Below, piece after piece: positions 16,454 through 33,077 of a stretch of DNA of 33,147 bases. The position numbers were made by a program, and so were the translations under genes. The stretch spans positions 1 to 33,147 of the forward strand of contig JAAYJV010000129.1 in the NCBI GenBank assembly GCA_012522755.1, read 5' to 3'. The notes beneath the pieces are model-generated. The model saw only the letters and a list, made by a program, of their open reading frames with translations. It ran no database searches and was not told the DNA's origin. Positions within the stretch are counted from its first letter, which is position 1, and every line of letters starts with the position of its first letter. The DNA comes from Candidatus Hydrogenedens sp. (GTDB lineage Bacteria; Hydrogenedentota; Hydrogenedentia; Hydrogenedentales; CAITNO01).

Positions 16454-18199
16454 TCAGGACAATCCTTCCTGCAGGGGAAGCCCTTCCATGAGAAAAGGCC
16501 CTATGGCAAGATAGTCAAGCCGTCCTCGTTTAAAAGCGGACACGGCTTCTTCAGGCGTACGGACAATGGGCTCTTCGTGGACATTAAAACTCGTATTCAG
16601 GAGAACGCCACTTCCTGTGATATTTTTGAAGGCTTGGAGAACTTTATGAAAAGAGGGGTTGTTCTCCGCTCGGACAGCCTGTGCCCTGGCCGTACCATCC
16701 ACATGAACGATGGCCGGATTTTCATCTTTCATTTTGTCCGTGCAGTCAAAGCACACGGTCATGAATTCCGCTGCATGACGGCCCGATTGTGTTTGAAGAC
16801 AATACAAATCCAGATCTTCAGCCAGAACAGCAGGCGCAAAAGGCATGAAATCACTTCGCTGCAGAAGCGTGTTCAGGCGTTGTACGACCTGGCTGTCTGT
16901 GGTCTGTGCCAGGATGGAGCGATTGCCCAGAGCACGGGGTCCCCATTCCATCCGCCCCGTAAAACGTGCAACCAGATAACTCTTTGCCAGAAGAGCAGCC
17001 ATTTCCTCCTCAATGGAATCAACGCGCTTGTAAGGCAGTTCCGCTTTCTTCAAGACAGCTTCTATCTCGTCATCTGTGAAGGACTCACCCCAAAACACAT
17101 CTGTGGCCCGTCTCAGGCTGACATCATCCTGAGCACAAATGGCACCCAGTCCCAATCCGCCGTCGCCCATGTTCGGAAGCACAAAAAGCTCTTCCACTTC
17201 ATCAATGGCGTGAAGACGCTGGTTCAGTTTCACATTGGCCGCCACACCGCCCGTTATGGCCAGTTTTGTTAATCCTGTTTCTTTCAGAAAGCGTCTGGCA
17301 ATCTGGACAACATATTTTTCGAGATTATCCTGAGCCCAGGCGGCCAGATCTTCTTTGGCATAACGTTCGCCCAAGTGCTTTTTCGCCCAGTCAATGCCAC
17401 GTTTTCCGAAACCGAATTTGCCCGTGAAACGGAGTTCTTCGTTCACATATTCAAAGGGGAAGGGGAAATCCACATTGTCGGCTGAGCCACCTGCAGCAAG
17501 TCCGGTGATTTTACCTTCGTCGCGACAGGAGACAAAACCGAAGACCTCGGTCAGCACCTGAAAGAAGAGACCGAGGCTGTCTCTGGAGGATACTTCCCAG
17601 AGACGTTCAAGAGGACGCCCCGGTGAAGAACGCATGACAAGAAGAGACAGACCGTCGCCCATGCCGTCCACAGAGAGGATAAGGGCGTCATCAAAGCCGG
17701 ACAGTTTCCATGCGGCGGCTGCATGGCCCAGATGGTGTTCCACATAACAGATCGGCTTCTTTTTCAGAGCCTTGGGCAGGACACGCCGGGTAAGCATGGG
17801 AAGGAAAGGCTGTGACCATTTCCGCATCAATGAGGTGTCCGAGGTATGTGAAACAGGAAGATAAAAAGTGACATCGTCCAGTATTTTCCGCAAGAAAGAT
17901 TCTTCCTTTTCCCGTCGGGCATTATAGAGCCACTGATGAGAGAAGGGAAGGAGTCGCACAGGCGGGGGAGGAGTCATGAGGCCGGACATGCAGATATAGT
18001 CAATATCCTGAGGGGCGATACCCGTATATTTGAACAGAGATTCCAGAGCCAGATGAGGGAATCCCCCTTCATTTTTTCGCCGGGAATAGCGCTCCTCATT
18101 GGAAGCGAAGAGTACGGATTCCCCATCACTGAGTGCTACACCGGAATCAAAAAGATCTTCATTTATACCAAGCCAGAGAGGCATAGGGTTTCCATTCAT
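16454..18199 (-). CDS. Carbamoyltransferase, NodU/CmcH family
   Basis: Enzymes of this family activate carbamoyl-phosphate with ATP and place the carbamoyl group on a sugar, antibiotic or nodulation-factor hydroxyl. The 581-residue length is typical. The N-terminal actin/Kae1-like domain shows LWLGINEDLFDSG, SNEERYSRRKNEGGFP (33-48) and the metal-site histidines in EHHLGHAAAAW (H155, H156, H159). VDGMGDG and TGGVAANVKLN follow. The C-terminal domain has GRMEWGPRALGNRSILA and LNTSFNVHEEPIV, both family hallmarks. The ATG at 18199 is the first in frame; its ribosome binding site is weak, and an ATG at 18184 is an alternative. No partner biosynthetic genes adjoin it, so the acceptor is unknown. 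Confidence 0.93.
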   Translation of the reverse strand: MNGNPMPLWLGINEDLFDSGVALSDGESVLFASNEERYSRRKNEGGFPHLALESLFKYTGIAPQDIDYICMSGLMTPPPPVRLLPFSHQWLYNARREKEESFLRKILDDVTFYLPVSHTSDTSLMRKWSQPFLPMLTRRVLPKALKKKPICYVEHHLGHAAAAWKLSGFDDALILSVDGMGDGLSLLVMRSSPGRPLERLWEVSSRDSLGLFFQVLTEVFGFVSCRDEGKITGLAAGGSADNVDFPFPFEYVNEELRFTGKFGFGKRGIDWAKKHLGERYAKEDLAAWAQDNLEKYVVQIARRFLKETGLTKLAITGGVAANVKLNQRLHAIDEVEELFVLPNMGDGGLGLGAICAQDDVSLRRATDVFWGESFTDDEIEAVLKKAELPYKRVDSIEEEMAALLAKSYLVARFTGRMEWGPRALGNRSILAQTTDSQVVQRLNTLLQRSDFMPFAPAVLAEDLDLYCLQTQSGRHAAEFMTVCFDCTDKMKDENPAIVHVDGTARAQAVRAENNPSFHKVLQAFKNITGSGVLLNTSFNVHEEPIVRTPEEAVSAFKRGRLDYLAIGPFLMEGLPLQEGLS

Positions 18200-18484
18200 G
18201 ACAGGGACGACCTGGCCGGTCTGGTCCCCGGATAAAAACGTGAGTTTATCGGAATTGACAAATTTTCCGCATCTATTCTACAAACCCCACCTGAAGGGTG
18301 GAAATTTCCGTTGTCTGATCAAGTCTGTAGTGTAGAGCAAAAGGACAAGGGAATCAAATTAACGGAGAGCACGGGTTTCAATGAATAATAGAATCTGGTG
18401 GGGAGCAGATGCATCGGAAGGGCGGAGTGGACCAAGTGGACGTGTTGAGACTATAGATCTTTTATGCCCCCTGTATTGTTTCCG
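18200..18484. other. Non-coding leader and spacer upstream of the repeat element
   Basis: No gene is seen. The stretch holds the 5' region of the carbamoyltransferase, a small hairpin CCACC-TGAAG-GGTGG next to the palindrome GGAAATTTCC (about 18287-18308), and a pair of AGTGGAC words at about 18425-18441. The same word pairing, in reverse complement, occurs near 1083-1102. Confidence 0.5.
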
Positions 18485-18969
18485 TGTTACTATCCGTCAA
18501 CTTCCATTTTTTTTGAAGAAGTTCATATGGCTGACTCTGCAAGTCATATACTTTCAAGATGTTGTGGGGTTCTCGACTCGGCAAACTGTCTTCCGACAAT
18601 CACGAACAAATAATGACTTGGGAAACCCTGAAAGACGTTGAGAGTCACTCCTGGGAACGCCAATTTCCACATTGGCAGACAGCGTGTTATGACATTGACA
18701 TTTTGTAAACAGTGGTGCGGTAACAGGTCTTTTGCCAACCAAGAATAAAATAAAAGCCTTTGTAAACCCTGAGTCTTTGTTCTCCCGTCAAATGCATATA
18801 TAAGTCATGGTCTTTTCCCGGGTGTCCTGCCAATGTGGAAATTGGCGTTCCCAGACTGCGCGACCCAAGGTCTTTAATTTATCAGTGTTGGTCAGTGTTC
18901 ATCTGTGGTTCTAAGGAACGTCGTGTCAGTGTCATCTCTTCGGTTAAGACGTGTTTTTCCGTGTGTTCC
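18485..18969. repeat. Dispersed repeat element, full copy with 28-bp inverted arms
   Basis: The left module (18485-18678) matches 24076-24250 and, more loosely, 32828-33010. The right module (18841-18969) matches 24251-24383. Between them is a 148-bp core flanked by two perfect 28-bp inverted arms (18651-18678 and 18827-18854). Each arm contains its own hairpin GCCAAT-TTCCAC-ATTGGC. The right module holds three degenerate 10-bp units (ATCAGTGTTG, GTCAGTGTTC, ATCTGTGGTT). No convincing coding frame exists in it, so it would have to move or spread with functions supplied elsewhere. Confidence 0.8.
18651..18854. repeat. Perfect 28-bp inverted repeat around a 148-bp core
   Basis: The arm CTGGGAACGCCAATTTCCAC... 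at 18651-18678 is the exact reverse complement of 18827-18854. Each arm folds alone, and the pair can also fold together into a long stem. The core (18679-18826) shows no ORF and no similarity to anything else in the window. Confidence 0.85.
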
Positions 18970-19023: not shown

Positions 19024-21282
19024 TTATGGTTCCTCATCAGTCTTCAAAAATTCATAAGGCCCCAGTGCCATATCTCTGGGACCTCTGTTTTCCGGCCAGT
19101 TCTCCGGATCACCTTTGCCGAAGACTTCCCGTATCGCTTCATACATGTCAAAGCCGAATTCCAGACAGGGCTCTATATAACTGCCTTCGCCCCACTCGTT
19201 CAAAGGCCCCAGAATGATGCTGTCCTGATCATGGCGGTCACAGTAGTCCCGGGCCGCTTCCAAAAGCTGTCGAAAACCATCCACAGTACGGCCATGAAAG
19301 ACATTGGCACGGTCGCCATGCCAGGGTCGGGAATCCCAACCTGTTTCCACCAGCGGATAATAGCTGATTTTATCAGACAGGGCACGTCGTTTCTCCCAGG
19401 CCGGAGGACCCACAGCCACCAGATCGGAGAAACGACTCAAAGCCGGCGCGGGAGCCAGTTCCAGAGCATTGCCCCATTCATGGTAACTCGTATGACCTTC
19501 GTATCCCTCTGATATCAGCGAATTGACCTCGTGCAGAACAACGGAATGTTGTACCGACACGAAAGAAATGCCTTCGAAGCCAGCTTCCCGCGCCATTTTC
19601 TGGGATTCAGCCAGAGCGGCGGCTGCTTCTTCACTCCCGCCCAGATCACGGCGTACGGCCTGGGCATCCCAGATGTACACGGCGGGTTTACCATTGATGC
19701 GATAATAACTTTTCAGCGGGAAATAATGGTCGATCCATTCTTGAGTGACGGCTCTCCAGTCTTCGCGACTGTGTGTATCGGGCGGATTGTGATTCGCCCA
19801 CATGATGGCAACTTCCAATTGGTCGCGGTATCTCGCTTCCTTATAAGCCTCAAACCAGTGTCTGAGCTGTTGCCGTCCTTCGCACCAATACCAGTCCACG
19901 AGAAAAGTGGAGATGCCGTTTTCCACGGCCCATTTGATTTGCCAGTCCACGCATTCCACCTTCGACTCGTCGTAATAGCCCAGAAGTGGTTTTCGTATGG
20001 GCGTTGTTTTTCTGACACAATCCCATTTGGCATCCGTATTCCAACCGGGGAAATAATAAGCGAGAACCTTCCGGGTGGTTTCCACAGGCTGCGGCGGGAG
20101 CACATAATCGGCCGGCGTATCCACTGGCTCGGCAAAAAATAGAAAGGTTGTGGCTGAATCGCTGTTGTTCCAGGTCAGAGTGAGGCTTTTCTCACCGGCT
20201 TCCCGGGCTATGACAGTTCCATGAACCTCACAGGATTCGCCATGACGCAGGGAAAGAGAACCGCAAGTGCTCGCAGGTCCCCGCATCCGCAGACCTTCTG
20301 AACTGTCAAAGTGAACCGTTTCCACCACGGCCTCGCCACCGCCCACATTGGTGAATTGCGCCAGAATGTTTTCAGGACGTTCTGCACGGCTGAGGGCATT
20401 TTCAAAGCCGAAATAGCTGAGCGCCAGTTCAGGCGGACCTTCCGCATCTGAGGCGAGAGCGACAGATTTCAGGAGAATATCCTCTTCCGGAGGGACGAGG
20501 AAGTGCATGCCGGCGACTTTACCGCGCCAAAGGGTATTTTCCCCCAGATGAAGATAGTAACGTCGGAATTCATCATCACTTTTCTGAAGATAAAGCGTTT
20601 CTTTCTGCAAGCCCGATCCGTGGGTAGCCCAGAAGAGATCCAGAGCACTGTCCTGACCGGCGGATACTTCCAGAATCATCCAGCCGGATTTTTCCGCATC
20701 AAGATCCAGAGGAGGGCTGACCAGAAGAGAGCCCTGGTTCACGTTCATCCAACCGGGCGCTTCCTGACTGGTATTGAATTCCCAGGCTGCATCATCGGAA
20801 CTCTCCAGAGTCCCCGGACGATCCATGACAGCGATCTCTGCGATGCTGAACTGGAGGGCGTCATAAAGATCCAGACGCAGTTGCCGGATGACCCCTTCCC
20901 TGTGCCAGAATGGAAAGATGTATATATCCTGCAGCTCTTTTGTAGCCGGCACTTGAAAGTGTGTGGATTTACTTTCTTCAAAGCCCCCGTATTTTCCTTC
21001 CAGTGTATTCGCCCAGAAAAGCTGGCCACGACCGGGACTGTCCGCCTGGATGCGCAGTCGTACATATTGGCCTGGGTTGGCGGGGATATTCAGATCCGTA
21101 CAGCGGAAAAAAGGATCCCAATTGATGGTCCGGCCCTGCAATGTGCCTCCCTCACAGTGCAGATCCGTGATATGGGTATTGGCCAGCCAGGCGGCACAGG
21201 CGTCTGAGTTCTGAAAATTCCACTGCTGAACGGTCATCAGACTGGAGAGCGTCAGAAAAGGAAGTAAAAGACTCATCAACAT
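19024..21282 (-). CDS. Secreted WbsX/GH99-like protein with duplicated N-terminal jelly rolls
   Basis: The start at 21282 gives 752 residues. It has AAGGAG 10 nt upstream and a signal peptide (MLMSLLLPFLTLSSLM), while the longer frame to 21402 crosses the predicted promoter. Residues 17-153 and 167-278 look like two copies of a carbohydrate-binding jelly roll (both with WxF starts and LFWA-T segments). A CARDB/NEW3-like domain (283-385) follows. From about 405 (KVLAYYFPGWN) to the end is a WbsX-type, GH99-like barrel with FLVDWYW, KPAVYIWD and GPLNEWGEGSYIEP. Such domains act on mannose-type glycans in characterised GH99 members; the substrate here is unknown. It is divergent from the GH9-like gene. 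Confidence 0.85.
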   Translation of the reverse strand: MLMSLLLPFLTLSSLMTVQQWNFQNSDACAAWLANTHITDLHCEGGTLQGRTINWDPFFRCTDLNIPANPGQYVRLRIQADSPGRGQLFWANTLEGKYGGFEESKSTHFQVPATKELQDIYIFPFWHREGVIRQLRLDLYDALQFSIAEIAVMDRPGTLESSDDAAWEFNTSQEAPGWMNVNQGSLLVSPPLDLDAEKSGWMILEVSAGQDSALDLFWATHGSGLQKETLYLQKSDDEFRRYYLHLGENTLWRGKVAGMHFLVPPEEDILLKSVALASDAEGPPELALSYFGFENALSRAERPENILAQFTNVGGGEAVVETVHFDSSEGLRMRGPASTCGSLSLRHGESCEVHGTVIAREAGEKSLTLTWNNSDSATTFLFFAEPVDTPADYVLPPQPVETTRKVLAYYFPGWNTDAKWDCVRKTTPIRKPLLGYYDESKVECVDWQIKWAVENGISTFLVDWYWCEGRQQLRHWFEAYKEARYRDQLEVAIMWANHNPPDTHSREDWRAVTQEWIDHYFPLKSYYRINGKPAVYIWDAQAVRRDLGGSEEAAAALAESQKMAREAGFEGISFVSVQHSVVLHEVNSLISEGYEGHTSYHEWGNALELAPAPALSRFSDLVAVGPPAWEKRRALSDKISYYPLVETGWDSRPWHGDRANVFHGRTVDGFRQLLEAARDYCDRHDQDSIILGPLNEWGEGSYIEPCLEFGFDMYEAIREVFGKGDPENWPENRGPRDMALGPYEFLKTDEEP

Positions 21283-21360
21283 AAGCGGGGTTCTCCTTTT
21301 GCCTGCCGGATCCTTTAAACAGACAGGTCTGTTGCTTTGGAGTCCGGCTTCTATCATGCT

Positions 21361-21389
21361 ATTATCCACAAGAAGCGCCGGTCGTACAA
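21361..21389 (-). promoter_or_regulatory. Promoter for the WbsX-like gene
   Basis: On the minus strand TTGTAC, a 17-bp spacer and GATAAT lie upstream of the start at 21282, leaving a leader of about 72 nt. No comparably good promoter was found for the divergent plus-strand gene. Confidence 0.5.
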
Positions 21390-21477
21390 AAAGCGACGTC
21401 ATGTTTTCTGAAAACTTGTGCGCAAAGAGTGTAAAATCCCAGGTTCGATCCTGAATTCTACCGTGGAGTTACAGCAG

Positions 21478-24051: not shown

Positions 24052-24075
24052 GTCGTCATCTCCTTTAAGACTCCA

Positions 24076-24383
24076 TGTTACTATCCGTCAACTTCTATTG
24101 TTTCTTCGAAGAAGTTCATATTGCTGACTCTGCAAGTCATATACTTTCAAGATATTGTGAGATTCTCGATTCGGCAAACTGTCTTCCGACAATTACAAAC
24201 AAATAATGCCTTGGGAAACCTTGAAAGCCGTTGAGATTCTCTCCTGGGAAATTGGCGTTCCCAGGCTGCGCGACCCAAGGTCTTTAATTTATCAGTGTTT
24301 ATCAGTGTGCATCTGTGGTTCCAAGGGGCGTTGTGTCAGTGTCATTTCTTCGGTTGAAGAAGTATTTCTTCGTGCTTCTGTCC
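24076..24383. repeat. Dispersed repeat element, internally deleted copy
   Basis: This copy has both the left module (TGTTACTATCCGTCAACTTC onward, as at 18485) and the right module. It lacks the 28-bp arm pair and core, which are reduced to CTGGGAA-ATTGGCG-TTCCCAG at 24244-24264. That sequence is what a deletion between GGAA words in the two arms would leave. Three degenerate 10-bp units follow (24291-24320). A GAAGAA-ATAC-TTCTTC type hairpin lies near its right edge, 8 bp from the metH stop codon. Confidence 0.8.
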
Positions 24384-28140: not shown

Positions 28141-29349
28141 TTATTGAAGTGCCTGGTCCAGATCGCTGATGATGTCACAGGCATTTTCTACTCCTACAGC
28201 CAACCGGAGAAGAGAATCCGTTATTCCCAGTGCATAGCGCTCCTCGCGGGTAATGGTGTAATAGCTGACCAGGGCCGGATGGGTGATGAGTGTTTCCACA
28301 CCACCGAGACTCGGAGCGATGTAACATAATTTCAGTTTGTCCAGGAAGACTTTTGCATCGTCCAGATCGCCATCAATATCAAAGGAGACAACACTGCCGA
28401 AGCCGGTCATCTGCGCTTTGGCTATTTCGTGCTGGGGATGGCTTTCCAGGCCGGGATAGTAGACACGTTTGATACGGGGGTGATTTTCCAGAAAGCGGGC
28501 CACTTCCAGACCGCTCCGGTTCTGCTGTTCCATGCGCAGGGCGAAGGTTTTAAGGCCGCGCAGCAGAAGATAGGAACAGTGAGGATCAATGACGCCGCCA
28601 ATGGCTTTGTGCAGTGCCCTGATTTCTTCTATAAGTTCCTTTTTGCCCAGAACCGCCCCGGCGAGAATATCATTATGGCCCGCCAGATATTTTGTGGCAC
28701 TGTGCAGTACGATGTCCACACCAAAATCAAAGGGGCACTGATTGAATGGGGTACTGAAGGTTGAATCGATGAGCGTAAGCAGGTTGTAACGCTTCGCCAG
28801 ATCACGGAGCCGTTCCAGATCAAAAATATTCAGATAGGGATTGGTCGGTGATTCACTGAAAATGAAGCGTGTTTCAGGGCGGATCGCTTTTTCAAGAGCC
28901 TCATAATCACCAAAGGGCACAATGGTGCAATCCACGCCGAAACGTTGCAGATAGGCGCTGCAGAATTCCAGGGTCTTCTTATAGGCATCATCGGTGATGA
29001 CAATATGATCCTTGCTTTTCACCAGAGCGAGGATGGTCGTGGTGATGGCGCTCATACCCGATCCGAAGACAACGCAATCTTCGGCGCCGCAAATGGCCGA
29101 GAGGCGGTCCTGAGCGACTTTTTCCGTGGGATTGCCATAGCGCCCGTATTCAAAGTGCGCTTCTCCACGACGGGTGTAGGCATCAATATGCTCCGTGTTT
29201 TTGAAGGCATAGGTGGATGTCTGGACAATGGGCGTGGTTATTGAATCAGCGTATCGGAAACGCTCTTCCCCGGCATGGACCGACAGGGTGGAGATACCTT
29301 TTCCCGGCATCTTGTGATTTTCATCATCTGTTGAATATGTGTCTTTCAT
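28141..29349 (-). CDS. Cystathionine gamma-synthase-type PLP enzyme
   Basis: This is a 402-residue member of the Cys/Met-metabolism PLP family. The PLP lysine is K220 in HSATKYLAGHND. SVHAGEE, YGRYGNPT and SGMSA (98-102) are also typical, and the C-terminal SLGGVETLITHPA contacts substrate. The segment around FEYGRYGNP and SESPTNPYLNIFD resembles gamma-synthases of the plant type, but family members acting as cystathionine beta-lyase or methionine gamma-lyase cannot be excluded. The ATG at 29349 has AGAGG upstream, and a promoter at 29455-29484 rules out the longer frame. Its place before metH supports a role in making homocysteine for methionine. Confidence 0.88.
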   Translation of the reverse strand: MKDTYSTDDENHKMPGKGISTLSVHAGEERFRYADSITTPIVQTSTYAFKNTEHIDAYTRRGEAHFEYGRYGNPTEKVAQDRLSAICGAEDCVVFGSGMSAITTTILALVKSKDHIVITDDAYKKTLEFCSAYLQRFGVDCTIVPFGDYEALEKAIRPETRFIFSESPTNPYLNIFDLERLRDLAKRYNLLTLIDSTFSTPFNQCPFDFGVDIVLHSATKYLAGHNDILAGAVLGKKELIEEIRALHKAIGGVIDPHCSYLLLRGLKTFALRMEQQNRSGLEVARFLENHPRIKRVYYPGLESHPQHEIAKAQMTGFGSVVSFDIDGDLDDAKVFLDKLKLCYIAPSLGGVETLITHPALVSYYTITREERYALGITDSLLRLAVGVENACDIISDLDQALQ

Positions 29350-29454
29350 GAAAGCCTCTACACTGTTTCTACGACCCGGAAAAAGATCTCCGGCCTGGCT
29401 GCAGACCTGAGAGAACAGGCCCGGGCGACTCATTCCATCGCCACTTTGGCTATC

Positions 29455-29484
29455 AGTATACAATCTGCAGTGCATCGGTGCCAA
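29455..29484 (-). promoter_or_regulatory. Promoter for the cystathionine-enzyme gene, with a structured leader
   Basis: On the minus strand TTGGCA, an 18-bp spacer and TATACT give a start near 29448 and a leader of about 99 nt. The leader contains GGCCTG...CAGGCC and overlapping CCCGG/CCGGG pairings that could compete. Confidence 0.6.
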
Positions 29485-29531
29485 ACGCAAGAGGATTCCA
29501 CTCCGGCGGGTCGGAAAGAATTGCAAGAATA

Positions 29532-29540
29532 TGCTATGAT
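29532..29540 (+). promoter_or_regulatory. Extended -10 element for the protease gene
   Basis: TGCTATGAT matches the extended -10 form TGnTATAAT. No clear -35 is present at the right distance. Transcription would start near 29547, about 63 nt before the ATG at 29610. Confidence 0.4.
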
Positions 29541-29609
29541 GAGTCCGCATCTTAACCGCTATCAGGGATCAGGCTGCGCTGACTGCAAACAGGGAGTCAA
29601 TGACTGAAA

Positions 29610-32790: not shown

Positions 32791-32819
32791 TGATACGGGG
32801 GCTTGACCGCTCTGTATCA
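32791..32819 (+). terminator. Possible hairpin terminator after the ferredoxin gene
   Basis: TGATACGGGG pairs with TCTGTATCA through about 10 bp, including two G-U pairs, around a 9-nt loop, beginning 8 bp after the ferredoxin stop. There is no T tract, so it may instead protect the transcript end. Confidence 0.3.
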
Positions 32820-32827
32820 CTACCCCT

Positions 32828-33020
32828 CCACTCCCATCACTTTTTCGAAGAAGTTCGTGCTGATATGGATCCAGGTTGTTTAGCTTCAACATATCATGAG
32901 ATCCCCGATTCGGGAAAGTATTTTCTGATAATCACGAACAAATAACGCCTGGGGAAACCCTGAAAGATCTTGAGAGTCACTCCTGGGAACGCCAATTTCC
33001 ACATTGGCAGACAGCGTATG
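32828..33020. repeat. Dispersed repeat element, left module with one arm
   Basis: The module is diverged at its left end but nearly identical to 18598-18688 over its last 90 bp (CACGAACAAATAA, GGGAAACCCTGAAAGA, then the 28-bp arm at 32983-33010 with its GCCAAT/ATTGGC hairpin). After the arm, similarity goes on only to AGACAGCGTATGACA, and no right module follows before the window ends. Confidence 0.75.
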
Positions 33021-33077
33021 ACAGGGCAATCGCATCTAAATTGCGCTCCGACCGCGTTTTGAGTTTATCGAGTGTGA

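Follow-up and report, generated by a model that had tools for sequence, protein, structure and literature searches.

A large REP-type repeat population with unequal doublet halves and exchangeable flanks in a Candidatus Hydrogenedentota genome, probably copied by a RAYT in trans

Results

Architecture of the repeat at 18485-18969

The window is a stretch of 33,147 nucleotides that makes up the entire contig C99 of a Candidatus Hydrogenedentota MAG (4.0 Mb in 199 contigs). The protein encoded at 28141-29550 has its closest named relatives in Candidatus Hydrogenedentota genomes. We refer to the window's genome as G000, to a sister species in its genus as G001, and to genomes of three related genera as G002, G006 and G007. 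The stretch under study, 18485-18969, lies between two genes and has the module order U0-arm-D0b-D1'-arm'-U1'. A second copy and a half element are found further along the window:

16454-18199, minus strand: carbamoyltransferase-type gene, neighbour on one side of 18485-18969
18485-18650, plus strand: left outer module of the U0 family, with good conservation over the 30 nt beside the arm and, in other copies, a variable or truncated distal part
18651-18678, plus strand: left arm, a REP with the tag CTGGGAA(CG) and the 6-bp hairpin GCCAAT/ATTGGC
18679-18752, plus strand: inner module D0b, boundary to D1 approximate
18753-18826, minus strand: inner module D1, inverted, boundary approximate
18827-18854, minus strand: right arm, a REP and an inverted copy of the left arm
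18855-18969, minus strand: right outer module, family U1, far end ragged among copies
19024-21402, minus strand: WbsX-type gene, neighbour on the other side
24072-24363, plus strand: second copy with a collapsed core, U0 + CTGGGAAATTGGCGTTCCCAG + U1', both arms mostly deleted and the spacer gone
32811-33024, plus strand: half element made up of a diverged U0, a single exact arm at 32983-33010 and ~14 nt from the start of the inner module

The left and right modules, the perfect 28-bp inverted arms and their 6-bp hairpins, all proposed in a first-pass annotation, are present at the places given there. The two 28-nt arms are 100% complementary and are separated by a spacer of 148 nt, within which the module boundaries are approximate. 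Each arm alone folds into a 6-bp hairpin. The window contains the exact arm three times, versus none expected in shuffles. The left module (18485-18650) recurs at ~24072-24250 (91%) and 32811-32989 (~70-74%), and the right module (18855-18969) recurs at 24247-24355 (92%). At the junction of the 24-kb copy, CTGGGAA is joined to ATTGGCGTTCCCAG, and the loss of its core is consistent with a deletion at the GGAA microhomology. A relative's contig (L032) has just ~60 bp in the gap that corresponds by orthology to the 24-kb copy, so this copy was either gained in the G000 lineage or lost in the other. The distal right module (18881-18969, ATCAGTGTTAATCAGTGTTCATCTGTGGTT..., period of ~10 nt) is also present without an arm, including at L120, L125, L115 and L127. 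CTCTGTGGTAAAAAAGATCATTTGGTTGCGGCTGTGCTGCG often follows the distal right module, and in other copies it precedes the left end.

The first-pass reading of the element as non-coding stands: Pfam returned no match in the two overlapping ORFs tested, and an origin from decayed genes was rejected on this result. The predicted fold of the 485-nt strand is more stable than those of its shuffles (z -4.2). This strong predicted fold and the intergenic placement would suit a family of RNA elements, either structured non-coding or regulatory, but the 485-nt element has no Rfam match at E values up to 1 and its flanks are exchangeable between copies. Beyond the arms, there is almost no covariation in the aligned cores (two-sided change in 1 of 54 predicted pairs, term -0.06), and on that term a conserved RNA structure of the spacer was rejected. 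We consider an RNA family highly improbable.

The arms as REPs

Statistics are based on 0.53 Mb of stretches picked around arms, mostly on contigs C1-C92, which contain a detailed set of 188 distinct arms, and on genome-wide pattern counts. The conserved unit is GGGA(A/G)CG followed by GCCAAT-loop-ATTGGC, and 152 of the 188 sampled arms share a 24-nt identity. Fourteen arm types were aligned from the window's genome, the sister species and the related genera. Their stem is 100% paired in all of them, with compensatory changes in four of the six stem pairs. The stem covariation score of 0.568 (0.191 when shuffled) is far above both the shuffled and the slid controls, although relatedness among copies is not corrected for in this or the other shuffle tests. 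Every arm type examined carries CTGGGA or GTGGGA, a degenerate GTRG-type tag that qualifies as a REP tag. The U2 arm, GTGGGAGCG...GTCCCC, has a tag identical to the Pseudomonas putida tag TGTGGGAGCG. The loop is genome-specific, with TTTCCAC in G000 and CTCCGC/GTA in the sister species.

The arms are extragenic: only 20 of the 188 lie within gene proxies (long ORFs, not curated genes), though these proxies cover 79% of the sampled DNA. By their tag, structure-conserved palindrome, copy number above 100 and extragenic location, the arms are REPs. Doublets in which a U2-type arm faces a main-type arm exist as well (L142 and L130). Such mixed doublets show that the single hairpin is preserved rather than full arm-to-arm complementarity, and conserved two-armed base pairing was therefore rejected as a constraint.

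Copies, doublets and mosaic flanks

A genome-wide search for further copies, as suggested by the first-pass annotation, found the arm motif 270 times in one form (146 on the plus and 124 on the minus strand) and, with a looser pattern, 335 times, while the reversed control pattern was found 0 times. BLAST with the 485-bp sequence gave at least 133 matches, with 40 of 260 candidate regions scored. Among neighbouring arms less than 700 nt apart in the 0.53 Mb, 56 of 57 inverted pairs have their tags outward (binomial p about 1e-15). The gap between the 24-nt motifs of a doublet is 134-175 nt with a mode of 152 nt, apart from one gap of 517 nt. The likeness to paired REP/BIME units that had been noted from the window is thus borne out by the tag and covarying hairpin, by hundreds of copies and by the tags-outward doublets. 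Direct arm pairs at 112-114 or 125 nt represent tandem arrangements, many of them with a U2 arm. At one locus (L133, contig C30 of G000), three arms in direct orientation repeat every 138 bp and so make up a row of half elements in tandem.

The modules around the arms form a mosaic. Inner modules, located 3' of the tag, fall into classes D0-D3 and minor classes, and whenever both inner halves of a doublet were classified, they belong to different classes, mostly D0b and D1. Outer modules, located 5' of the tag, belong to at least five families (U0-U4) that are interchanged between copies; 26 of the D0b/D1 doublets are flanked by U0 and U1. Mean pairwise identity peaks at the arms (0.955-0.983) and falls outward, with 0.90 for the inner modules, 0.83-0.86 for the proximal and 0.63-0.65 for the distal outer modules. 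The arms are near-identical in differing contexts, and those in doublets are only marginally better preserved than single arms (p 0.056). Among the copies found, the closest cores reach 97.5% identity, and whole copies reach 93% at best. In the sampled loci, whose choice for carrying arms biases the frequency of modules without one, the proximal modules U1 (56 cases) and U3 (11 cases) were never seen apart from an arm. For this reason, insertion of REP doublets into pre-existing repeat families is disfavoured within these loci.

The first-pass annotation had offered a miniature mobile element, with a left and a right module, as one reading, and had proposed aligning all copies to define the ends. 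A single miniature element with two defined end modules is not supported. Aligned copies are cut off at several different points on the left and are ragged on the right, the outer modules are swapped, and conservation declines outward. The swapped outer modules and ragged far ends indicate that the 485 bp are a REP doublet with patchwork flanks, not an element with fixed ends. These observations also bear on a classical miniature inverted-repeat transposon of ~485 bp, ending at the outer modules and moved by a DDE transposase. A left end at ~18480-18490 is shared by many copies, and whole copies up to 93% alike would be in line with such an element. However, its inverted repeats are internal and not terminal, its outer modules are exchanged and its ends vary as described. 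In addition, neither a target-site duplication nor an empty site with exact borders was recognised at the one relative site compared (L032), which is too diverged for exact borders. We regard this transposon as very unlikely.

A hairpin core with swapped flanks is also what integron-type attC sites would look like, and the genome contains generic tyrosine recombinases. But the sites are dispersed, in both orientations and mostly as inverted doublets, and no integron integrase above the curated TIGR02249 cut-off was found in the genome. The chance that these are attC sites seems negligible.

RAYT genes beside the repeats in relatives

A Y1_Tnp search was run in 40 genomes and a profile of the family's RAYTs in chosen genomes, with the NCBIfam RAYT model NF047646 (cut-off 80) as the threshold. 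RAYTs above the cut-off were found in G002, G006 and G007, with scores of 84.6, 93.0 and 91.2. These intact genes (L207, L214 and L218, respectively) lie beside REPs of the same design or among them. Of the 52 motif copies in the G002 genome, 14 cluster within 4.1 kb at the RAYT gene (L207:1479-2528), and some of these fall within its reading frame. Its own-type REPs are found at both ends and inside the frame, which runs through them and gives peptides such as GNANLPIG and ANREIGVPR. The first-pass view that an element without an ORF would need an enzyme supplied in trans is well supported by these RAYT genes amid the same REP type.

In contrast, the profile search found no RAYT of the REP-linked clade in G000 or G001. 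Many contigs of the MAG terminate inside these repeats, a pattern that the repeat population accounts for, so a missing RAYT in such assemblies needs to be read with caution. G000 contains two RAYT-like genes, C8:69085 and C167:9142. The C167 gene, which keeps HYH and Tyr and is the only one with intact catalytic motifs, scores 73.9 bits, under the cut-off of 80. Directly upstream of it is a diverged U2-arm-D0 half element (alignment score 51 versus a shuffled maximum of 19). Downstream, two copies of another REP type, GGAGTGCG, form a pair, and the main family is thus seen on one side only, in a MAG that breaks at repeats. The search for a RAYT gene with such arms on its flanks, suggested in the first-pass annotation, succeeded in G002, G006 and G007 with REPs of the same design, and in G000 gave this diverged upstream half element beside a different REP type downstream.

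In the C8 protein (L031:1426-2136) and its G001 ortholog (L202:2561-3277), substitutions have removed the first HUH His as well as the Tyr, and for this the C8 protein was rejected as the active enzyme. Both genes lie beside the same oxidoreductase-like gene and encode a basic KRGRK tail at the end. This type of RAYT-like gene is possibly domesticated.

The second REP type forms a small population, GGAGTGCGNAAGCCATGCTTNCGC, of 15 copies in G000, also as inverted pairs, on contigs C14, C62, C63, C118, C121, C150, C167 and C179 (L254 and L255). Its motif also occurs nine times in G003, which belongs to another genus. At L255:4503-4726 on C14, a GGAGTGCG pair adjoins a partial main-family arm, AAATTGGCGTTCTCAG, perhaps representing one REP type inserted into another.

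The sister species G001 has 37 motif copies, about ninefold fewer than the 335 in G000, and this difference within one genus fits a lineage-specific expansion. Its arms have CTCCGC or CTCCGT ahead of ATTGGC, and it has its own outer modules. Its tags-outward doublets have gaps of 94-96 nt, and there are two inward pairs at 163 nt. In other genera, arm pairs are found at about 12-48 nt.

Discussion

A member of a RAYT-dependent REP population

We believe that 18485-18969 is probably a member of a large REP-type population whose doublets are copied by a RAYT in trans. The recognised unit would be the single REP with its outward tag and hairpin, usually in a tags-outward inverted doublet of near-fixed spacing. 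This gives a REPIN/BIME-like core of 204 bp with ~30 well-conserved nt on each side, in which the spacer consists of two unequal inner modules. The enzyme, its single-strand mechanism and the copying of the repeat are inferred from known RAYT biology. A RAYT, as an HUH single-strand transposase, would recognise tag and hairpin on single-stranded DNA, excise and copy the doublet in trans, and re-insert it between genes. Outer modules may travel with the doublet, or the near-identical arms may let them be exchanged through recombination or template switching, which would give the mosaic flanks.

Three groups of observations count against copying by a RAYT. One is the situation in the genus itself, with the REP-linked RAYT clade not found in G000 or G001, and with the C167 gene below the cut-off and flanked by the main family on one side. 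Another is the doublet, with unequal, non-covarying spacer halves, unlike described REPINs, and arms barely better preserved than single ones. The third is that no transposition, target duplication or empty site with exact borders was seen. The lack of a REP-clade RAYT in G000 and G001 could point to orphan REPs, spread by a RAYT since lost from the genus and now persisting and rearranging passively via recombination, slippage and gene conversion. The lack of any visible very recent burst among the best copies (97.5% for cores, 93% for whole copies) and the slippage-like deletion in the 24-kb copy are in agreement with this. On the other side are the ~9-fold excess of arms over the sister species (335 versus 37) and the near-identity of arms across contexts. 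Besides, very recent identical copies would break the assembly. Since many contigs do stop within arms, the bin may lack a short contig that carries a REP-flanked RAYT. Orphan REPs are a possible explanation, which we find somewhat doubtful.

The unequal halves may alternatively suggest an obligately asymmetric REP element. Here, a non-autonomous single-strand transposon would have the D0-class and D1-class halves as its left and right ends, distinct from each other and each with an exchangeable outer module. With no RAYT of the REP clade, its population would have reached about nine times that of the sister species, and either a divergent RAYT or some other enzyme would move it. We think this unlikely, and favour copying by a RAYT in trans.

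Comparison with known systems

Pseudomonas REPs with the tag GTGGGAGCG and REPINs have been described by Nunvar 2010 (PMC2817692) and Bertels and Rainey 2011 (PMC3116915). These studies state that two inverted REPs always flank a RAYT gene, and propose that REP doublets are non-autonomous elements. The Hydrogenedentota element follows the same tag logic (TGTGGGAGCGGGC... in Pseudomonas putida, CGTGGGAGCGCC or CCTGGGAACGCC here) and has the same hairpin, inverted doublets of preferred spacing, extragenic location, hundreds of copies and link to RAYT. It differs in its spacer of 152 nt, compared with about 71-110 nt in Pseudomonas REPINs, in its unequal halves and in the shared outer modules beyond its REPs. 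Measured against a REPIN, the inverted doublet of preferred spacing is present, whereas spacer complementarity with compensatory changes is not.

In the GTAG superfamily (Di Nocera 2013, PMC3733652), the tag degenerates to GTGG in some families, tags-outside dimers are privileged in most, and stems have alternative complementary residues; GTAG-1 has an unpaired dinucleotide between tag and stem. The Hydrogenedentota element shares the degenerate tag, the unpaired dinucleotide of GTAG-1, the tags-outside dimers and the complementary stem variants, but the CTGG form of the tag dominates. In E. coli BIMEs, REPs alternate in orientation and the segments between them recur (PMC2817692). Both of these features are found here. 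Unlike in BIMEs, modules of about 60-170 nt are found both inside and outside the REP pair, with strict outward orientation and a rule that pairs D0 with D1.

In the literature library searched, no paper combines Hydrogenedentes with the REP term. With RAYT genes sitting among REPs of their own type in three genera, the RAYT-REP partnership extends to Candidatus Hydrogenedentota, and the population described here provides a REP doublet with reliably different halves and exchangeable flanks. The arm-pair gaps of related species, about 12-15, 48, 94 and 152 nt, form a natural series for studying the substrate requirements of a RAYT. In its workings the element resembles a REPIN or BIME, and it departs from the REPIN description in its unequal halves and non-covarying spacer.
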